Shown here: in pieces, positions 3,169 through 39,514 of the stretch
Layout: every line of letters starts with the position of its first letter
Position numbering within the stretch: the first letter of the stretch is position 1
From: Leptolyngbya sp. DLM2.Bin15
GTDB lineage: Bacteria; Cyanobacteriota; Cyanobacteriia; RECH01
Length of the DNA stretch: 48,499 nucleotides
Direction: 5' to 3'
NCBI GenBank assembly: GCA_007694125.1
Contig: RECH01000287.1
Span: 1 to 48,499 of the forward strand
The notes under the pieces: model-generated
Seen by the model: the letters and a program-made list of their open reading frames with translations, nothing else
What the model was told of the DNA's origin: nothing
Database searches by the model: none
Made by a program: the position numbers and the translations under genes

Positions 3169-4155
3169 TTAGTAGTCGATTTCCTCTTCATACTCCGCCA
3201 CTTTCTGCCGATCGGGCAGGTTGAGCTTCGGCGGCGTATAGGGTTTGGGCTTGTCTGCATCTGCCCAAGCATCTCCGGTCACCTCTACATCCTCATACTG
3301 AGCCTCAGGATAGGGAGCAGGGGATGGAGGCGCGGCATAGTCTTCATCCACATAGGCCACCTGCTGCTCATAGGTCTCATTCCCCCAGTTGGCTTCTTGG
3401 TAGTAAACCGGCTCGGGTTCAGCTTGGCGCAGGGGTTCGGGCATGATGCGTTCTTGGGGCTCGTTCCAGTTATCCTCATCCCAGGTTTCTTGAGCCGTAG
3501 GCATCACCGTTTGCAGCGGTTGGGCAGCCGGTAAGCCTGTTCCTAGCTGGTTGGACGTTGAGGTAGGCATCACGTAGTAGTCATCCACCCCCCGATCCCA
3601 AGAGGGACGACCGATACCCAGGCGTTCTAACACCCCCACCGTCATCTGCACCATCTTCTCCTCTGCCCCTTCGAAGACAATCAGGCGATCGGGGCCGCTA
3701 CTGACGACTTCCTCAATGGACAGTTCATAGGTGCTGATCACTTGATCGGGAATCAGAGGGATGCCGAGGGAGGCGATCATCAAGGATTCAACCTTGCCAT
3801 CATTAATGTTGAACTTAAATCCTCGCACTTTGCCCAGCAATTCGCCGGTCTCTGTGACCACTTCACTGTTGATGAGAATGCTGTAGGGGTCGGTATCAAA
3901 CGCATCTTCGACCGCGTTGTCGTCATCGACCAAAATCACATCACCAATTTGGCGGATGTTGCTCAACAGCATAATCTCTTGCGTGCCCGACAAGACTCCA
4001 GACAGCACGCTTTCCCGTAAGCCAAAGGCCACAACTTCACGACGATCGATGTCTACCCAGATCTGACTGACGACGCCGAGGCGCTTGCCAGTGTCTCGGG
4101 TAATAATTTGAGTTCCTAGGAGGTCGGCTCGTTGGCAGTACTGTTCAAAAGTCAT
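3169..4155 (-). CDS. PRC-barrel domain protein with acidic/proline-rich C-terminal tail
   Basis: Two PRC-barrel-like segments (GTQIITRDTGKRLGVVSQIWVDIDRREVVAFGL; GELLGKVRGFKFNINDGKVESLMI), then low-complexity tail. Confidence 0.8.
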   Translation of the reverse strand: MTFEQYCQRADLLGTQIITRDTGKRLGVVSQIWVDIDRREVVAFGLRESVLSGVLSGTQEIMLLSNIRQIGDVILVDDDNAVEDAFDTDPYSILINSEVVTETGELLGKVRGFKFNINDGKVESLMIASLGIPLIPDQVISTYELSIEEVVSSGPDRLIVFEGAEEKMVQMTVGVLERLGIGRPSWDRGVDDYYVMPTSTSNQLGTGLPAAQPLQTVMPTAQETWDEDNWNEPQERIMPEPLRQAEPEPVYYQEANWGNETYEQQVAYVDEDYAAPPSPAPYPEAQYEDVEVTGDAWADADKPKPYTPPKLNLPDRQKVAEYEEEIDY

Positions 4156-4447
4156 GGGTGGATTTTTGTCTCGAAAATGGTCGAGAGAGCGAAATTGGCA
4201 GCAATGGTGTCAGCGATTCGTCAATGGTAACGCTAACGATGGCTAGAACAAATCATAAACCGGATGGGGAAAGTTCCAACGAGACCGTAGGAAATCCAGT
4301 GAACGGCGGGGGGTAAACGGCGGATGGGTGAAACCAGTGGCGTGAGGCGTGGCGGCAACGAAAGGATTGTAGGGTATTGAGCAAGCTGTGGGCAGGGTCT
4401 CAAGCCAGTTTTTTAGGTAGAACGATGGCTGATCTTGGAGGCGATCG

Positions 4448-7400
4448 CTACCCAGAAATCCGTCCCTGGAGATCAATACCCAGCACCTGCGTGTAGGCTC
4501 CTCGGGCTTGGGTTACCCCAATGGTGCGCTGAGCAGCTTCAATCATCGGACGTCGCAGGCTCACGACGATGAACTGTGCCTGTTGAGTCTGATGTTTAAT
4601 CATTCTAGCTAATCGTTCTACATTTGCCCCGTCAAGGAACATATCCACCTCGTCAAAGGCATAGAAGGGGGAGGGGCGATAGCGCTGCAGGGCAAAGATG
4701 AAACTAAGGGCCGTAAGGGACTTTTCTCCCCCAGACATGGAGGCGAGGCGGCGGACGGGTTTGCCCTTGGGATGGGCGACTAGATTGAGTCCGCTGGAAA
4801 AGGGATCGTGGGGATCATCAAGCTGCAGGTAGCCGTCCCCATCGGAGAGTTCAGCAAAAATGGTTTGAAAGTTGCCATTCACTGCGTCAAAGGCTTCCTT
4901 GAAGGCCCGCTGGCGCAGGGTGGTGAAGTTTTCGATGCGCAACAGCAGTTCGCTACGTTCTTCCGCCAAGGTGGACAGCTTTTGGCTGAGTTCATCCAGA
5001 CGCCCCTGGGTGCGATCGTGCTCTTCTAGGGCCAGCATGTTCACCGGCTCCATGGCCTGCATCCGCCGCTGCAGCGATCGCACCTGTTGCTGGAGTTGCT
5101 CTAGCCCTAGCTCGTCGGGAATCTGCGGCAGAGGATCGGGCAATTCGGCCTGCTGGGCCACCAGTTGCTCCTGCAGGGCCGCCAAGTCTTGCTGACGCGC
5201 CTGCTGGGTTTCGAGGGTATGCTGACGTTTCAGCTCCGTTTGCTGATGCAGGGTTTGGCGATCGCGTAATTGCCGCTCCACCCGATCGCGCTCTTGCTTC
5301 TCCGCCGATAGGGTGTGCTCTAGGGTGGCCAAGGCGGTTTGAATCTCCGCAATCTCGCGGTTGAGGGCATCCTGCTGGCTGCTGCCGGAGGTACGCTGGC
5401 TGAGCTGGCTAGTCTGCTGCTGCCGGTACTCCTGCACCCGCTGCTGGGCCTGTTCAATCTTTTCCTGAAGCCGCTGGCGCTGCATGTCCATCTCACTACA
5501 TCGCTGCTCGGCGGCGCGCAGGGCCAGTTGGCGATCGCTGAGGGTTGCTTCCTGCTGCTGAATCAGGTTCTGGGCCTGCTGCCATTCGCTATGGGCTTGG
5601 GATTGTTCCAACTCCGTCAACTGCTGGCGATCGCGGGCCACCTCGGCTTCCTGCTGCGGTAGCGCCTTCTCCAGGGTCTTGAGACGGGTTTGGGCCTGAC
5701 CCAGTTCTTGGGTATGCTGGGACAACTGGGCCCGCACCTGCCCTTCTTGAGACACCAGATGGGCAAGCTGTTGCTGCAGTTGCTCTGCCTTGAGATGGGT
5801 TTCGCGCTCCAGTTGTCGAGCATCCATCAGGGCTTGAGACTGGGTTTTGAGGCTAGCGCTAGCCTGGTGAATTTCCCGCTGACAGCGATCGAGGATGTGG
5901 TCAATTTCCTGGAGGCGATCGCGCAGACCCGTCACCTCCGCCGATTCCCCGGTCTCCCCCACCCCAAAGTGCAGGGATCCTTGACGGCTGGCCGTGCTGC
6001 CCCCGGTCATGGCACCGCTAGCATCGAGCAGTTCTCCATCCAAGGTGACAATGCGGTACTTGCCAATGTGGGGGCGAGCATCCTGAAGATTGGAAAACAC
6101 CACGGTATTGCCAAACACATGGGCAAACACCACCCGATAGCGATCGTCACAGTCAATCAGCCGACTGGCATAGTCAATAAAGCCACGGGGCTGTTGGGCA
6201 GGATTGATCGGCGACAGGCGCGGCGCACGGATTTTGTTCAACGGCAAGAAAGTCGCCCGACCTGCCCGCTTTTGCTTGAGCAGTTCAATCCCCGCTGCGG
6301 CGATGCCATCATCTTCCACCACTAGATGCCCCAAGCGACCCCCAGCAGCAATTTCCAGCGCCAGTTGATACTCCGCCTCCACCCGACCCAACTGAGCTAC
6401 CAGCCCGCAGATCCCCGGCAGGTTAGCTTGGGTGAGTAGGCGCGTGGCTCCCGTTCCATGGGCATCCTGCATGGCCTGCATCTGGGCCTCTAGGCGATCG
6501 AGCTGGCGTTGTTTGTCCCGCTGTTCTCGCAGCAGGCGATCGCTGGTTTCCTGCTGTAGCTTCAGTTGGGCCTCGGTAGCGCTCAGAGCCTGGGCCTGCT
6601 GCTGCACCTGCTGGCGTTGCTGTTGGTGTTCGGCTTGTAGACTGGTCTGCTGCTGCTGGTGCTCAGCCAAATCGGCAGCGATCGCCTCTAGGGTTTGCCG
6701 ATGCTCTTGAATTTTTTGCTGGAGTTGATGCACCCGTTCCTGTAGCGTTGCCTGCTCCCGCCGCCCCGGCTCTAGCTCCTGCAGCCGTGATTCAATCCGG
6801 TGCCGCAGCTCCGTTTGCTGCTGAATCCAGGCGGCAGAGGCAGAAGCGATCGCCTGGGCCGACTCCCGACTCGCCTCTAGGGTTTGCTGGGCAGCATCCC
6901 GCGCTTGCCGTAGCTGCACCAACTCTTGCGTATCGAGCACTTGCTGATCTGCCTGCAGGGCCTGCAGGGCCTGGCGGTGGTCATGTAGCTCCCGCTGGGT
7001 ACGACCCAGTTGCGTCGCCGTCTCTTGGCTGGCTGTGATCAGCGCTTGCTCCTGTCGCTGAAGCTGCCGCAGTTCCGCCTGCCGCGTCGCGAGAGTTGCC
7101 TGTAGTCCTAGCTGCTCATCTTCCCCCAGGGCTTTCACCCGCCGGTTCAACTCCTCCAGGGACTCCGTCGCTTGGGCAATATCCACTGCCAAAGCCTGAA
7201 GCTGGGTACTGTAGTCAGCGAGGGCTTGATGGCTGGTTTCAAGCTGCTGCTGGAGCTGCTCCGCCTGCCGTTGGCGATCGCGCCAATGGAGCACCGCCTC
7301 CCACTGACTTTTATCCTGAAACTCCGCGCGTAGGGCCTGGTACTTCTCCGCCTTAATTCGATCTTGGGCCAGGCGATCGCGCTGGGCAATCAACTCCCGT

Positions 7401-12234: not shown

Positions 12235-12717
12235 TTAGGAAGACTTTTTAGAACTGCGCCAGGCCTCGGTCATGCGCCCGAAGTTGAGGCGAAACTCACC
12301 CCAGCCCAAGCGACTGCCCGCCGAGTCTTCATCCCAGGATGCCGACAGCACTCCATAGCTCAGGCCCACAACGCCTAGACCGAAAAACCCTAAACTGACC
12401 AGCAGCACCGCTGTTGGAGGCAGCTTAAAGAGGTCTTGGGTCACCACCACATAGCTGACAATAAATGTGGATATCCCCAGCACCGTCGGCACACCGCAAA
12501 ACAGCGCCATGCGTCGAATCATGCGGCGGCTGACCACCTCGGGGATGGCCGAATTAGCGCTGGGCGATCGCTTAGCAGTCGATGCTGCCGATGCAGACGA
12601 GGCAGGACGGCTTGTTGCAGCCGGGGCAGGCTTTTTCTCCGTCTTTTTGCGGTTGCTAGACGGCTCAAACGGAAGGCGATCGGCGTCGGTCGATTTGTCG
12701 TTTGACTTAGACCCCAT
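12235..12717 (-). CDS. pam68: PAM68-family photosystem II assembly protein (DUF3464)
   Basis: Low-complexity N-terminus, two TM helices; AIPEVVSRRMIRRMALFCGVPTVLGISTF; next to rpsO as in other cyanobacteria. Confidence 0.85.
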   Translation of the reverse strand: MGSKSNDKSTDADRLPFEPSSNRKKTEKKPAPAATSRPASSASAASTAKRSPSANSAIPEVVSRRMIRRMALFCGVPTVLGISTFIVSYVVVTQDLFKLPPTAVLLVSLGFFGLGVVGLSYGVLSASWDEDSAGSRLGWGEFRLNFGRMTEAWRSSKKSS

Positions 12718-12722
12718 GGCGC

Positions 12723-12992
12723 TTAACCGCGAATGCCAAGACGGGTAATCAGGGCGCGATAGCGGTCTTGATCATGCTTGAGAATGTAGGCGAGGAGCCG
12801 TTTCCGGTGACCAATAATTTTCAGCAAGCCACGCCGGGAGGAGTGATCCTTCTTGTTGACCTTTAGGTGGGCACTGAGCTGGTTAATGCGCTCGGTGAGC
12901 ATGGCCACCTGTACATCGGCCGATCCGGTATCGGTTTCGTGGACTTGGAAGTCGGTGATAATCTTTTGTTTTTGCTCTTGAAACAAAGCCAT
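12723..12992 (-). CDS. rpsO: 30S ribosomal protein S15 (start at MALFQEQKQ)
   Basis: [52 protein letters not shown]-type sequence. Confidence 0.97.
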
Positions 12993-13090
12993 GGGTCGTC
13001 TGTTCTCTATCAACGCAGTCGAAGCTACTCATCATATCATAGCCGGTCATGCTGCTGGAAGGGTACCTTAGCAGCCGGACTCCAACCTAG

Positions 13091-13720
13091 CTAGTCACGG
13101 CTCAGCCAGGCGATCGCTTCCCGAATCCACAGCTCCACATCCGTACTTTTCGACAGCGTGGAATAGTGCCCCACCGTCCGCAGGGCTTCCATAATCTCTT
13201 GGGGGCTGTAGCCCAAGGCCATCAGGGTAATTTCCACATCTTCCTGCACGGCAGGCACAGGAGCGGCATCAGGAGCACTGGTCATCAGCCCCGATTGATG
13301 TCGCCACTCGGCTAATTTACTGCGCAATTCCAAGGAAATCCGCTCCGCCGTCTTTGCCCCCACACCGGGCGTGCGGGACAGCATTCGGATATTGCTGGAC
13401 ACGATCGCTTGCACCAGATCTTGAATGCCTAGGGTATCCAGCAGCGCTAGGGCAAGCTGAGGGCCAATGCCGCTCACGGCAATCAGTTGACGAAATAAAT
13501 CGCGCTCTGCCGGCGAGAGGAAGCCAAAGAAACTTTGCTGATCATCGCGCCAGTGCAGATGGGTGAACACCTGCGCCGATGTACCGAGGGTGAAGGTGCT
13601 GAGGCTACGCGGCAGAATTTGCAGCTCATAGCCAATGTGGTTCACCTCCAAAATCAGCAGCCAGCGGTTATTGGGCAGGGCTTGCAGGGCAGCAACGGTG
13701 CCCGTGAGGTAGCTAATCAT
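13091..13720 (-). CDS. ruvA: Holliday junction DNA helicase subunit RuvA
   Basis: MISYLTGTVAAL..., FRQLIAVSGIGPQLALALL, RTPGVGAKTAERISLELRSKL. Confidence 0.96.
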   Translation of the reverse strand: MISYLTGTVAALQALPNNRWLLILEVNHIGYELQILPRSLSTFTLGTSAQVFTHLHWRDDQQSFFGFLSPAERDLFRQLIAVSGIGPQLALALLDTLGIQDLVQAIVSSNIRMLSRTPGVGAKTAERISLELRSKLAEWRHQSGLMTSAPDAAPVPAVQEDVEITLMALGYSPQEIMEALRTVGHYSTLSKSTDVELWIREAIAWLSRD

Positions 13721-14476
13721 TCAACTGGGATCTAAAAAGCCAAAATGGTGGAGTCCTTGCAGAATACCACCGGCACAGGGGCGATCGGCGAGAAAGCGAT
13801 CGCTAGATGGATGGTGATGATGCCAGGTGATTAACTCCGGCTTTGCATTACCGACAATAATGCCCTTCGCCTCAGCATGGTCATACATGGCCCGGTCATT
13901 CCCCGAATCACCACAGACCACCGTGCGCTCCGGCGGCATCTGGAACATCCGCTGCAAGAACTGCACCGCCGCCCCCTTATTGCCGTGGCGCGGCAGTAGA
14001 TCCAGATCCACACCACTGCTGTAGACCACCTGCACCGCTAGCCCCGCCTGCTGAAAGGCAGATTGGAGCAACAGCAGCAGGCGATCGCCCTCCTCGGATT
14101 CAACATAGTAGCTCAGCTTATGGGGCAATTGTTCCGACGCGGGCTGAGGCGTTAACTCAGAATAGCGGGCGGCGATCGCTGCCACCTGGTGACGATCCCA
14201 ACCTTGGTTAAGATGCTCGACCCACCCCGGATCCGGGGTGGAACTCTTGCCGACATAAATCTCGGTGCCCACCGCCAACACCCGCACATCCGGCTCCAGC
14301 AACGCCACCTCACGGGTGAGTTGGTCATACCGGGTAGGCGATCGCCCCGTGGAATAGACCAGGATAGTACCGTAGCGATCGCGATGCTGGGCCAGGCAAT
14401 GGTTCAAGTAAGCCAACGCTACAGGATCACCGACCAGAGTTCCATCTAAATCTGTGATGAACAAAAAGGGAGACAC
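13721..14476 (-). CDS. Sucrose-phosphate phosphatase-like HAD hydrolase
   Basis: FITDLDGTLVGD HAD motif I; GNKGAAVQFL; VVCGDSGNDRAMY; stop abuts the ruvA start (TGAATG). Confidence 0.85.
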   Translation of the reverse strand: MSPFLFITDLDGTLVGDPVALAYLNHCLAQHRDRYGTILVYSTGRSPTRYDQLTREVALLEPDVRVLAVGTEIYVGKSSTPDPGWVEHLNQGWDRHQVAAIAARYSELTPQPASEQLPHKLSYYVESEEGDRLLLLLQSAFQQAGLAVQVVYSSGVDLDLLPRHGNKGAAVQFLQRMFQMPPERTVVCGDSGNDRAMYDHAEAKGIIVGNAKPELITWHHHHPSSDRFLADRPCAGGILQGLHHFGFLDPS

Positions 14477-14636
14477 CAGATTTCCTCAACACAACAACCA
14501 GGCTTCAAGAGCTACGTTACGAAAGCGAGTTGCTGAGGTCAAGCGGTTACCCCAACATTTCTCCCGCCAATCACAATCCCCACAAAATCACCGCAAAATA
14601 TTGCCCCTTGCAGTGTAGACCGCCGATTACACCGCT

Positions 14637-14735
14637 GACAAAACTCCTGCAATCCTGATTCCCTCGTAGGCTGGGCTAGCGTCAGCGTAACCCAACAGAA
14701 TCTAGGCCAATACTGGGTTTCCCGTTGCTCCACCC
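14637..14735 (+). repeat. Dispersed repeat A, copy 1 (diverged)
   Basis: GACAAAACTCCTGC...CTCGTAGGCTGGGCTAGCGTCAGCGTAACCCAACAGAATCTA...ACTGGGTTTC.CGTTGCTC shared with 16858-16968 and 47570-47680(-). Confidence 0.8.
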
Positions 14736-14847
14736 AGTCTGCGCAACTTGGTCAGTCAACCAGCTCATGAATTCAGCGCGCAAAAAAAGCGCCCCTGTCT
14801 GTTGACAGCGACGCTCCTAGTACACGAGAACTTTTTGGGAGGCTCGA

Positions 14848-15123
14848 TCAGCCGCCCGCCACCGCTGGCACAATGCTGACTTCATCACCATCCTGCAGAA
14901 CCGTACCGGCCCCATCCAGGAAGCGAATATCTTCGCTATTGACGTAGAAATTGATGAAGCGCCGCAATTCGCCTTGGTCATCACAGAGCCGCGCCCGAAT
15001 GCCAGGGTAGGCTTGCTCCAGAGCATCAAGCAATTCGGTAATCGTGCCGCCATTGCATTCAATGGTGGCTTGATCGCGGGTAAATTTTTGGAGCGGAGTT
15101 GGAATCAGTACCTTAACAGCCAT
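14848..15123 (-). CDS. MoaD/ThiS family ubiquitin-like sulfur-carrier protein
   Basis: 90-aa beta-grasp-like protein ending ...[14 protein letters not shown] (C-terminal Gly-Gly); downstream of thrC on the same strand. Confidence 0.88.
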
Positions 15124-36021: not shown

Positions 36022-36933
36022 TTAGAATGACTGCAGTTGGGCAGGCGAGAGCATCGACTCGGCAGGCTCTAGAGCCTGGATCGTCAGGTCATAGCTCATG
36101 TCCACCTGGGCCTGAAAACCGGGTTGGAGAGCGCCTGCCACGGGTGCAGCTTCCTGGGGAAAAGGGGCCGCGGCTAGGGCAATATAGCGATCGCCCACGG
36201 CCAGTCCATAGGTTGGGTCATAGCCCCGCCAGCCCGCGCCCGGTAAATACACCTCCGCCCAAGCGTGCAGATGGGCATCGGGATTCTCGGGATCGCCTTC
36301 GTGATAGCCACTGACAAACCGCGCCGCCAACCCCACCGATCGACAAACCGCCATAAACAGCACCGTCAGATCCCGGCAGGAGCCCAGCTTTTTCTGCCAG
36401 GTGACGCTAGGAGGATAGGGATCCCCCGTTTCCCGCAGGATATAGCTGCTGTGGTGGTAGATGCGCTGATTCAGCTCGGTCAAAAAGTTGATGGTATTGC
36501 CTTGGGTCATCTCCCAGATGGACTGCCCTAGCTCCGTTGCCATGGGATCAAGGATGCCGGGGGTGGGAATAAAATGCCCGACCCAGTAGGGCTGAAGCTG
36601 GCTGGACAAGCGGCTAGGGTAGTTAATGGGCAAGGATGCCGCCCAGGGTTCTAGGATAAAGTTGAAGGGATTATCGCGATAGGTTTCCACCACCGATAGG
36701 GTCTGTAGCTCTAAGCGATGGATAGGTTGATCTGAAAACCAAGCCTTGAGACTCGAATGTCCATCGAGGTCAAGATTGTCGGAAAGACCAACGGGGTGAG
36801 GCGTGATCTCCAGCGAAAACTGGGTGAGGCTTTGGGCAGCATCCGTGCGGGGGCGCAGCCGGACAATGTGGGGATCCAGCCGCACGGGGCGATCGTAGGT
36901 GTAGGTGGTGAGATGGGTAATTTTGTATCGCAC
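36022..36933 (-). CDS. Transglutaminase-like family protein
   Basis: GSCRDLTVLFMAVCRSVGLAARFVSGYHEGD, DAHLHAWAEVYLPGAGWRGYDPTYGL (Cys/His/Asp triad). Confidence 0.93.
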   Translation of the reverse strand: MRYKITHLTTYTYDRPVRLDPHIVRLRPRTDAAQSLTQFSLEITPHPVGLSDNLDLDGHSSLKAWFSDQPIHRLELQTLSVVETYRDNPFNFILEPWAASLPINYPSRLSSQLQPYWVGHFIPTPGILDPMATELGQSIWEMTQGNTINFLTELNQRIYHHSSYILRETGDPYPPSVTWQKKLGSCRDLTVLFMAVCRSVGLAARFVSGYHEGDPENPDAHLHAWAEVYLPGAGWRGYDPTYGLAVGDRYIALAAAPFPQEAAPVAGALQPGFQAQVDMSYDLTIQALEPAESMLSPAQLQSF

Positions 36934-36972: not shown

Positions 36973-38190
36973 CTAGAGCGGTGGATGGTGCAGTCCTTGC
37001 AGGGGCTGTTGGCGCTCAACATCGGTCAGACCCTTACTTTGGATCAAAACACCGAAGTTGCCCAGCCCCATAGGATTCATTAAGGCGTGCAGGGCTTCGC
37101 GACGCTGAAATAGGGTCTGCACGTCGGGCACAGTGGCTGGGTTGGAGAGCAGGGCAAGGCGATCGCCCAACCCCAACGCCATCAACAACAAACCTTGTTG
37201 GGTAAATCCTAGCTTGGAAAGACCAACGGTTTCACCGTGGCGCTCTAGATCCGTAAAGTTAACATGGGCGGTGAGATCCTGCTGTCCAATATAACGATAG
37301 GGGTCGGAATGGTGGGCGTGGTGGTAATAGCATTGCAAGGTGCCGCCGGTGCGGGTGGGAGCGTAGTAGCGCTGGGCAGTGTAGCCATAGTCAATCGTCA
37401 ACAGATAGCCGCGCTGTAACCGTTGAGCCACGGTATGCAGCCAGTCTTGAGCGACTAGGTTCACCTCCGTGCGATACCCATCAGGATAGGGTGCATGGGT
37501 GATGTCGATCCCCAAGGTCTCGAAGTAGGTACAGAGGCGATCGCTGGATAGGTCACCGAGCTGTTCCACAAACTGGGGTAGGTCATCGGTCGATGGCCCT
37601 AAGGTAACGTAGACTTCCCGTAGCTGCTGCTGCTGGGTTTCAACTAGGTGTACCGGGAAGGCATCAACGAGCTCATTGGAAAAACAGCAGCCGACCAGGG
37701 ACTGGGAAGGAATCTGATCCCAGGTATACCAGCGCACGGTACCAGAGGAGGCGATCGCCCCTAGCCGCTGCCGCTGTTCGGCGATCAGTGCCGGCGATTT
37801 TTCCACAATTCCGTACTCCAACACCTGGAAGCAATCCGGGTGGTGATCGGCGAGATACCGTAAAACATCATGGGCTAGTAAACCCTGACCCGCACCCATT
37901 TCTAAGAGGTGAAACGGCTGAGGGCGATCGAGATGATGCCACAGTTGCACCATCTGCACCGCCAAGAGTTCGCCAAAGTCCCGACCCATGTGGGGAGAGG
38001 TGACAAAATCACCCTGGGCACCAATTTTTTCCGCATAACGGCTGTAGTAGCCATGCTGGGGATGGTAGAGCACCCAGTCCATATAGTCAGCAAAGGTGAT
38101 CCGCTGCTGAGGACTCGCCAGAATATGGTCTGCAAGCAGGTGTACGAGCTGGGGATTGGAGGAGAGATGGGGTTGGGGAGAAACAGACAT
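36973..38190 (-). CDS. MidA/NDUFAF7-family SAM-dependent methyltransferase (COG1565-type)
   Basis: ITFADYMDWVLYHPQHGYYSRYAEKIGAQGDFVTSPHMGRDFGELLAVQMVQLW, HLLEMGAGQGLLAHDVLRYL, CCFSNELVDAFPVHLVE. Confidence 0.88.
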   Translation of the reverse strand: MSVSPQPHLSSNPQLVHLLADHILASPQQRITFADYMDWVLYHPQHGYYSRYAEKIGAQGDFVTSPHMGRDFGELLAVQMVQLWHHLDRPQPFHLLEMGAGQGLLAHDVLRYLADHHPDCFQVLEYGIVEKSPALIAEQRQRLGAIASSGTVRWYTWDQIPSQSLVGCCFSNELVDAFPVHLVETQQQQLREVYVTLGPSTDDLPQFVEQLGDLSSDRLCTYFETLGIDITHAPYPDGYRTEVNLVAQDWLHTVAQRLQRGYLLTIDYGYTAQRYYAPTRTGGTLQCYYHHAHHSDPYRYIGQQDLTAHVNFTDLERHGETVGLSKLGFTQQGLLLMALGLGDRLALLSNPATVPDVQTLFQRREALHALMNPMGLGNFGVLIQSKGLTDVERQQPLQGLHHPPL

Positions 38191-38323
38191 AGTGAGTATT
38201 GAACAGGCAGGTGTAAAACGACAGCCATCTCAGACGGCAGCCAGGGCCCAAAAAAGCAGGTCAAGACGACCTGCTCATAGGATCACAGTCGTGAAACTGT
38301 GTCTTTCAATAACCTAGCGATCC

Positions 38324-39514
38324 CTAGCGATCAACCGATCCCATAATCACGTCGATGCTGCCCAAGATAGCCATAATGTCTGCCACCTTCACGCCCTTGA
38401 GCAAGTGGGGCAAGATTTGTAGGTTATTGAAGTCCGCCGCCCGGATCTTCCAGCGCCACGGAAAGACGTTGTCGTCCCCGATGATGTAGATCCCCAGTTC
38501 GCCCTTGCCGCTTTCCATGCGAACGTAATGTTCACCAGCAGGAATCTTGAAGGTAGGGGGAATTTTTTTACCAATAAATTGATAGTCAAATCCATTCCAT
38601 TCAGATTTGGGGCCTTCAGCAATCCGCTTGGCTTCTAGGTTTTCATAGGGGCCACCCGGCAAGCCCTTAAGAGCTTGGCGAATGATCTTCACGGATTCTC
38701 GCATTTCCCGCACGCGGATTATGTAGCGGGCAAAGCAGTCTCCAGCGGTTTCCCACTGCACGTCCCAATCAAAATCGTCGTAGCATTCGTAGTGATCCAC
38801 CTTACGCAGATCCCACTTCACACCCGACCCGCGCAGCATCGGCCCAGAGAGACCCCAAGCGATCGCTTCATCCCGCGTGATCGTACCAATACCTTCAATC
38901 CGGCGACGGAAAATGGGGTTGTTGGTAATCAGGCGTTCGTACTCGTCTACCTTGGGCAGGAAGTAATCGCAAAAGTCTTCGCACTTATCAACCCAACCGT
39001 AGGGCAAGTCCGCCGCTACGCCGCCAATGCGGAAATAGTTGTTGTTAATCAACCGCATTCCGGTGGCGGCTTCCCACAGGTCATAAATCATCTCCCGCTC
39101 ACGGAAGATATAGAAAAAGGGCGTCTGAGCACCCACGTCAGCGAGGAAGGGGCCAAGCCAGAGCAGGTGGTTGGCAATCCGGTTCAGCTCCAGCATGATC
39201 ACCCGGATGTAGCTGGCTCGTTTGGGTACTTCAATATCGGCCAAGCGCTCCGGCGCATTCACCGTAATGGCTTCATTGAACATCCCCGCCGCGTAGTCCC
39301 AACGACTGACGTAGGGCACAAACATGACGTTGGTGCGGTTTTCTGCGATTTTTTCCATGCCTCGGTGCAGGTACCCAATCACGGGTTCGCAGTCCACCAC
39401 GTCTTCACCGTCCAGGGTGACAATGAGGCGCAACACCCCGTGCATAGACGGATGGTGGGGCCCCATGTTGAGCACCATGGGTTCGGTTTTCGTTTCGATC
39501 ATTGCCATGTGCAA
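38324..39514 (-). CDS. ndhH: NAD(P)H-quinone oxidoreductase subunit H (49-kDa subunit homologue)
   Basis: [45 protein letters not shown] ... [14 protein letters not shown]. Confidence 0.98.

Follow-up and report, generated by a model that had tools for sequence, protein, structure and literature searches.

The ndhH-midA locus

The window analysed here is the whole stretch of 48,499 nucleotides of contig RECH01000287.1 of Leptolyngbya sp. DLM2.Bin15, from a cyanobacterial genome of 5.0 Mb. On its minus strand the open reading frame at 38324-39514 encodes NAD(P)H-quinone oxidoreductase subunit H (ndhH). A profile search matched it to the NCBIfam model PRK07415 ('subunit H') at 860 bits with a cut-off of 583, which bears out the initial annotation of the gene, and comparison with PDB sequences gave 824 bits to the NdhH of cyanobacterial NDH-1 (6hum). 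Judged by these comparisons the product is a standard cyanobacterial NdhH. The PRK07415 model begins at residue 3 of the ORF and we therefore regard ATG 39508, giving a protein of 394 aa, as a more likely start than TTG 39514.

Downstream on the same strand lies midA (36973-38190, 405 aa), previously read as a COG1565/MidA-like gene 133 bp 3' of ndhH. This reading was upheld, with a PF02636 match of 253 bits (cut-off 23.3) covering profile positions 1-249 of 249 and a gap running from 38191 to 38323. A genome-wide profile search found one PF02636 member in the source genome. Its solved relatives in a PDB sequence search were the bacterial COG1565 proteins 4f3n and 1zkd and Dictyostelium MidA (5ztz, E 7e-18). 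An AlphaFold2 model, computed from an alignment of 25 family members, had a mean pLDDT of 91.7; its six best PDB fold matches were all COG1565/MidA structures (E 1e-26 to 1e-32), the next family appearing only at E 4e-7, and superposition on Dictyostelium MidA (5ztz/5zu0) gave a TM score of about 0.77. The S-adenosylmethionine (SAM)-binding motif I, EMGAGQG (residues 97-103; 37882-37902, minus strand), and the family-conserved NELVDAFPVH (residues 172-181; 37648-37677, minus strand) are both intact. E97, G99 and G103 of the former are invariant in the 25 aligned members, as are N172, E173, D176, P179 and H181 of the latter, which fit the family pattern NE-x-x-D-x-x-P-x-H. The full-length profile match, the modelled fold and the invariant motif residues together identify the product as an NDUFAF7/MidA-family SAM-dependent methyltransferase without sign of decay, and it is predicted to be a protein arginine methyltransferase.

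The description of midA as lying directly downstream of ndhH holds as far as the common strand and the 133-bp gap are concerned, but the gap (38191-38323) contains a terminator-like hairpin. The hairpin, GAGCAGGTC-GTCTT-GACCTGCTTTTTT, was recognized by eye and by folding at about 38276-38249 and is followed by a T6 tail; it was absent from the output of a pattern scanner. Given this element we do not claim an ndhH-midA operon for the window. On the other side, 39 bp 3' of midA, a transglutaminase-like protein is encoded (36022-36933, minus strand; PF08379, PF01841). This gene was considered as the true partner of midA and rejected, as it does not recur within roughly 1.5 kb to either side of other midA genes.

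The predicted target arginine

NDUFAF7 is the enzyme that methylates an arginine of NDUFS2 in human cells (PMC3829151), and in the published mapping the modified residue, Arg85, was placed by fragmentation within the peptide KCDPHIGLLHRGTEK (PMC3750175). The equivalent position is also modified in human, Pichia and Paracoccus denitrificans and is unmodified in E. coli (PMC3750175). In the window NdhH, the arginine of GYLH-R-GMEK aligns with NDUFS2 Arg85 in KCDPHIGLLH-R-GTEK and is thus equivalent to bovine Arg85, Yarrowia Arg121 and P. denitrificans Arg65. It is Arg51 of the ORF, or Arg49 in the 394-aa numbering, and is encoded by the CGA codon at 39362-39364 (minus strand). The source organism thus has the arginine that the enzyme would require within an HRGXE motif, here HRGMEK (39350-39367, minus strand), a motif that lies beside Fe-S cluster N2 (PMC8042128). 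Yarrowia Arg121 is 3.7 A from N2, which is lost when this residue is mutated, and Thermus thermophilus has a threonine at the equivalent position (PMC8042128). What methylation contributes next to N2, apart from the arginine itself, is described there as unresolved (PMC8042128).

The initial annotation had placed the matching arginine codon at 39428-39430 (minus strand), which is the wrong residue. This codon specifies Arg29 in GVLRLIV. Arg29 is likewise conserved in cyanobacterial NdhH, so that MidA might in principle act on NdhH at this or another residue. We consider this highly improbable and reject Arg29 as the target, since fragmentation maps the modification to the HRG site (PMC3750175) and since GVLRL is kept in MidA-less cyanobacteria carrying HRS in place of HRG, so its presence is not tied to that of MidA as the HRG site is.

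Genomic association of midA with complex I genes

The positions of PF02636 members and NdhH were compared in 194 genomes of the phylum. In total 17 close midA-ndhH/nuoD pairs were recorded, each spaced within 2.1 kb and sharing one strand; 15 are from cyanobacteria, representing seven families, and two from non-photosynthetic relatives. In the first sample of Cyanobacteriia midA lay downstream of ndhH, within 1.6 kb and on the same strand, in 12 of 93 genomes (families f1, f3, f4, f7, f11 and f15), against a chance expectation that we estimate at about 0.1-0.2. One or more unrelated ORFs separate the two genes in four of these 12, each a member of family f7 or f11. In three Gloeobacter-like genomes one of the ndhH copies is closely preceded by midA (gap of 36 bp in G332), and in the two non-photosynthetic relatives (G016, G023) midA directly precedes nuoA, followed by nuo genes to nuoI, the names of which we assigned from ORF sequences and order. 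The linkage thus recurs but it is not general, as the 12 of 93 show; in most MidA-bearing cyanobacteria the genes are far apart.

This minority status would suit a different explanation, in which MidA methylates another protein or a nucleic acid, the ndhH neighbourhood is due to chance or to shared expression, and the pairing with the motif follows from ancestry. A further point in its favour comes from Wolbachia MidA which, expressed in E. coli, methylated DNA in a 2025 report that its authors call 'preliminary' (PMC12455994), so that other MidA substrates are possible. Against it, midA recurs in three different arrangements, before ndhH, after it and as the first gene of a nuo operon, the strand being shared in every case, and the human homologue methylates exactly the HRG motif (PMC3829151, PMC3750175). 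Moreover, in the phylum sample each of the 94 genomes that carry MidA also has NdhH/NuoD, and the 101 genomes checked for both include no case of MidA without NuoD/NdhH. We therefore hold a different substrate to be unlikely, and favour NdhH.

Two observations from the survey concern individual genomes. In G043, a member of the Cyanobacteriia with a 3.8-Mb genome on one contig, ndhA is present and profile searches gave no match to ndhH or midA; their joint absence may reflect a common loss or an assembly gap, and G542 of the same genus has MidA. Partial PF02636 matches in two other genomes (G031:C18, G039:C18) lie inside open frames of 5,000-9,750 aa; these are probably large synthases with a methyltransferase domain that has nothing to do with the function of MidA.

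Pairing of MidA with the HRG motif

In the first sample every one of the 90 MidA-bearing Cyanobacteriia carries HRG in NdhH (77 by exact DNA pattern and 13 read individually), while two with NdhH and without MidA have HRS. The second sample comprised 389 Cyanobacteriia, 355 with MidA and 29 with HRS, the non-Gly pattern being blind to Ala, Val, Asp and Glu codons in its MidA-bearing genomes beyond the 90 that were read. The 34 MidA-less genomes divide into 27 with HRS, two with HRA, four with HRG and one without ndhH. We also scanned about 85,000 species genomes for YLHR-x-MEKIAEN with x non-Gly (codons not starting with G). This returned 36 genomes, all HRS, namely 26 cyanobacteria, including Pseudanabaena, Gloeomargaritales and one Gloeobacterales MAG, and 10 Omnitrophota, Zixibacteria and Planctomycetota. 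None of the 36 has a family-size MidA, two giving partial matches of 20-25 bits. The two samples and the scan partly overlap.

Two genomes, G332 and G339, appeared to be counterexamples in combining HRS with MidA. Reading both of their ndhH copies resolved the matter: together with G346 they carry two ndhH genes each, the midA-adjacent copy having HRG in all three and the distant copy HRS, HRS and HRA in G332, G339 and G346, respectively. HRS and HRA are thus confined, among the MidA-bearing genomes read, to second copies distant from midA, and otherwise to MidA-less genomes. That only the HRG copy adjoins midA in genomes with both forms again speaks against a substrate other than NdhH. At one Gloeobacter-like locus (L169) the stretches 3909-5090 (plus strand) and 12606-15041 (minus strand) hold two NdhH genes, one HRS and one HRG, with the HRG-type ndhH 36 bp from midA and ndhK- and ndhJ-like ORFs between the two copies.

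The same Gloeobacter-like genomes, with two NdhH forms of which one is linked to midA, could also suggest that MidA and HRG-type ndhH spread as a linked cassette, the association reflecting gene transfer more than a current need of enzyme for substrate. A cassette without functional coupling would probably break up, and most MidA-bearing cyanobacteria keep the pair though the genes are far apart, which counts against this explanation. We find it very unlikely as an account of the association; as a history it is compatible with methylation of NdhH by MidA, which we continue to prefer.

The converse pairing is looser. HRG occurs without MidA in G341, G446, G451, f34, f35, G001 and G164 and in E. 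coli, and a strict rule of HRG if and only if MidA had to be rejected; the glycine is therefore not enough to infer methylation. The firmer claim runs the other way: among those read, no MidA-bearing genome lacks an Arg-Gly NdhH/NuoD.

Some further genomes deserve mention. G457 (1.6 Mb, 20 contigs, with the genus code of several very small genomes) has an HRG NdhH and gave no MidA match; an assembly gap is likely here, because the related draft G598 has its midA truncated at the edge of a contig. In G005 (L051-L053) pieces of ndhH lie at the ends of contigs in three places, and two of these pieces are N-terminal and differ slightly from each other; an interrupted gene was rejected, the fragments being contig ends, and they probably stem from two copies of ndhH at which the assembly broke. 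Chloroplast NdhH (PDB sequences 9grx, 7wfg and 7eu3) has a long signature in common with MidA-free cyanobacterial NdhH, yet has HRG.

Planctomycetota and phylogenetic tests

Outside this phylum we turned to 98 Planctomycetota, seven of which have a family-size MidA, with HRG in the NuoD of all seven. The 18 MidA-less genomes with a readable motif have HTG (10), HSG (3), HRS (2), HRC (1) or HRG (2). Fisher's exact test, comparing the five MidA-bearing Planctomycetota found by pattern with 17 others, gave p 8e-4, a value that ignores ancestry. In most MidA-less Planctomycetota with a readable motif (L156-L168) the arginine of the NuoD motif is itself replaced by threonine or serine (HTGFEK, HSGFEK), as in Thermus. 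Profile searches of the control genomes of E. coli and Thermus composti found no MidA match.

On the NdhH/NuoD tree the MidA and motif states are clustered by descent, with seven changes of MidA, and this clustering is a point for the explanation by another substrate and shared ancestry. Among six independent pairs the motif changed in the same direction in two to three and in the opposite direction never; the sign test is not significant, six pairs being too few. A quick tree had hinted at two clean NdhH clades, MidA-type and MidA-free. The careful NdhH tree did not uphold them and the cyanobacterial sequences of the two types were not split into two clades.

Discussion

Taken together, the gene family, the modelled fold, the intact motifs, the recurrent linkage and the pairing with HRG point to the midA gene beside ndhH as the cyanobacterial counterpart of NDUFAF7/MidA, most likely dimethylating the arginine of the NdhH HRGMEK motif, and we put the probability of this reading at roughly 80%. 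The earlier proposal that MidA modifies NdhH thus gains from the recurrent same-strand linkage, from midA heading a nuo operon and from the pairing with HRG, including that in two-copy genomes, while the residue it named was misidentified. We propose that MidA would use SAM to dimethylate Arg49 of HRGMEK (codon 39362-39364) symmetrically, that newly made NdhH would be modified before docking with NdhK, and that the modified side chain would then pack, at the plastoquinone site, next to Fe-S cluster N2. That the arginine is methylated at all, that this happens symmetrically, at what stage it happens and how it bears on NDH-1 assembly are all points that we infer. After loss of MidA the residue following the arginine, or the arginine itself, would be free to change, and one may speculate that a serine could partly occupy the room that the absent methyl groups would have taken. 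If the glycine is kept mainly for the enzyme, then Ser, Ala or Gly after the arginine, or loss of the arginine, is what would be expected in MidA-less lineages.

The family, the reaction and its occurrence in bacteria are already known. With the mitochondrial complex I assembly factor NDUFAF7/MidA the window MidA has family and fold in common (TM about 0.77 to 5ztz, the Dictyostelium protein being 22% identical in the fold alignment), the substrate subunit is orthologous to NdhH and the HRG target motif is kept. Unlike NDUFAF7, the window enzyme is predicted only, its partner is the photosynthetic NDH-1 and its gene adjoins that of the presumed substrate. The closest solved structures, with 25-32% identity, are the COG1565 proteins of Rhodopseudomonas palustris (1zkd) and Burkholderia thailandensis (4f3n/4g67); the partner of such alpha- and betaproteobacterial proteins is respiratory complex I, and Paracoccus complex I carries the dimethylated arginine (PMC3750175). 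The complexes of E. coli and Thermus thermophilus, whose NuoD/Nqo4 is homologous to NdhH, resemble the MidA-less state, with an unmodified arginine in the former (PMC3750175) and threonine instead in the latter (PMC8042128). A literature search lacking most subscription journals found no paper treating NdhH and NDUFAF7 together, which for that reason is not proof of novelty, and two structure reports on cyanobacterial and spinach NDH make no mention of a methylated arginine.

A wider possibility, to which we would give even odds, is that cyanobacterial NDH-1 exists in methylated and unmethylated forms. MidA would then accompany only HRG-type NdhH, Gloeobacter-like genomes would encode both forms, and Pseudanabaena, Gloeomargarita and possibly chloroplasts would have dropped the modification, releasing the residue after the arginine from constraint. 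The MidA-less HRS and HRA lineages, together with the genomes carrying both NdhH forms, offer natural controls, and if both forms of the complex exist they would amount to a natural experiment on arginine methylation beside N2. For the chloroplast NDH our data raise the question of its methylation state. Methylation of the arginine next to cluster N2 has been described in mitochondria, in yeasts and in a single alphaproteobacterium. If it holds for the photosynthetic NDH-1 as well, the modification would no longer be confined to the line of proteobacteria and mitochondria, and would extend to genetically tractable strains in which MidA can be removed.
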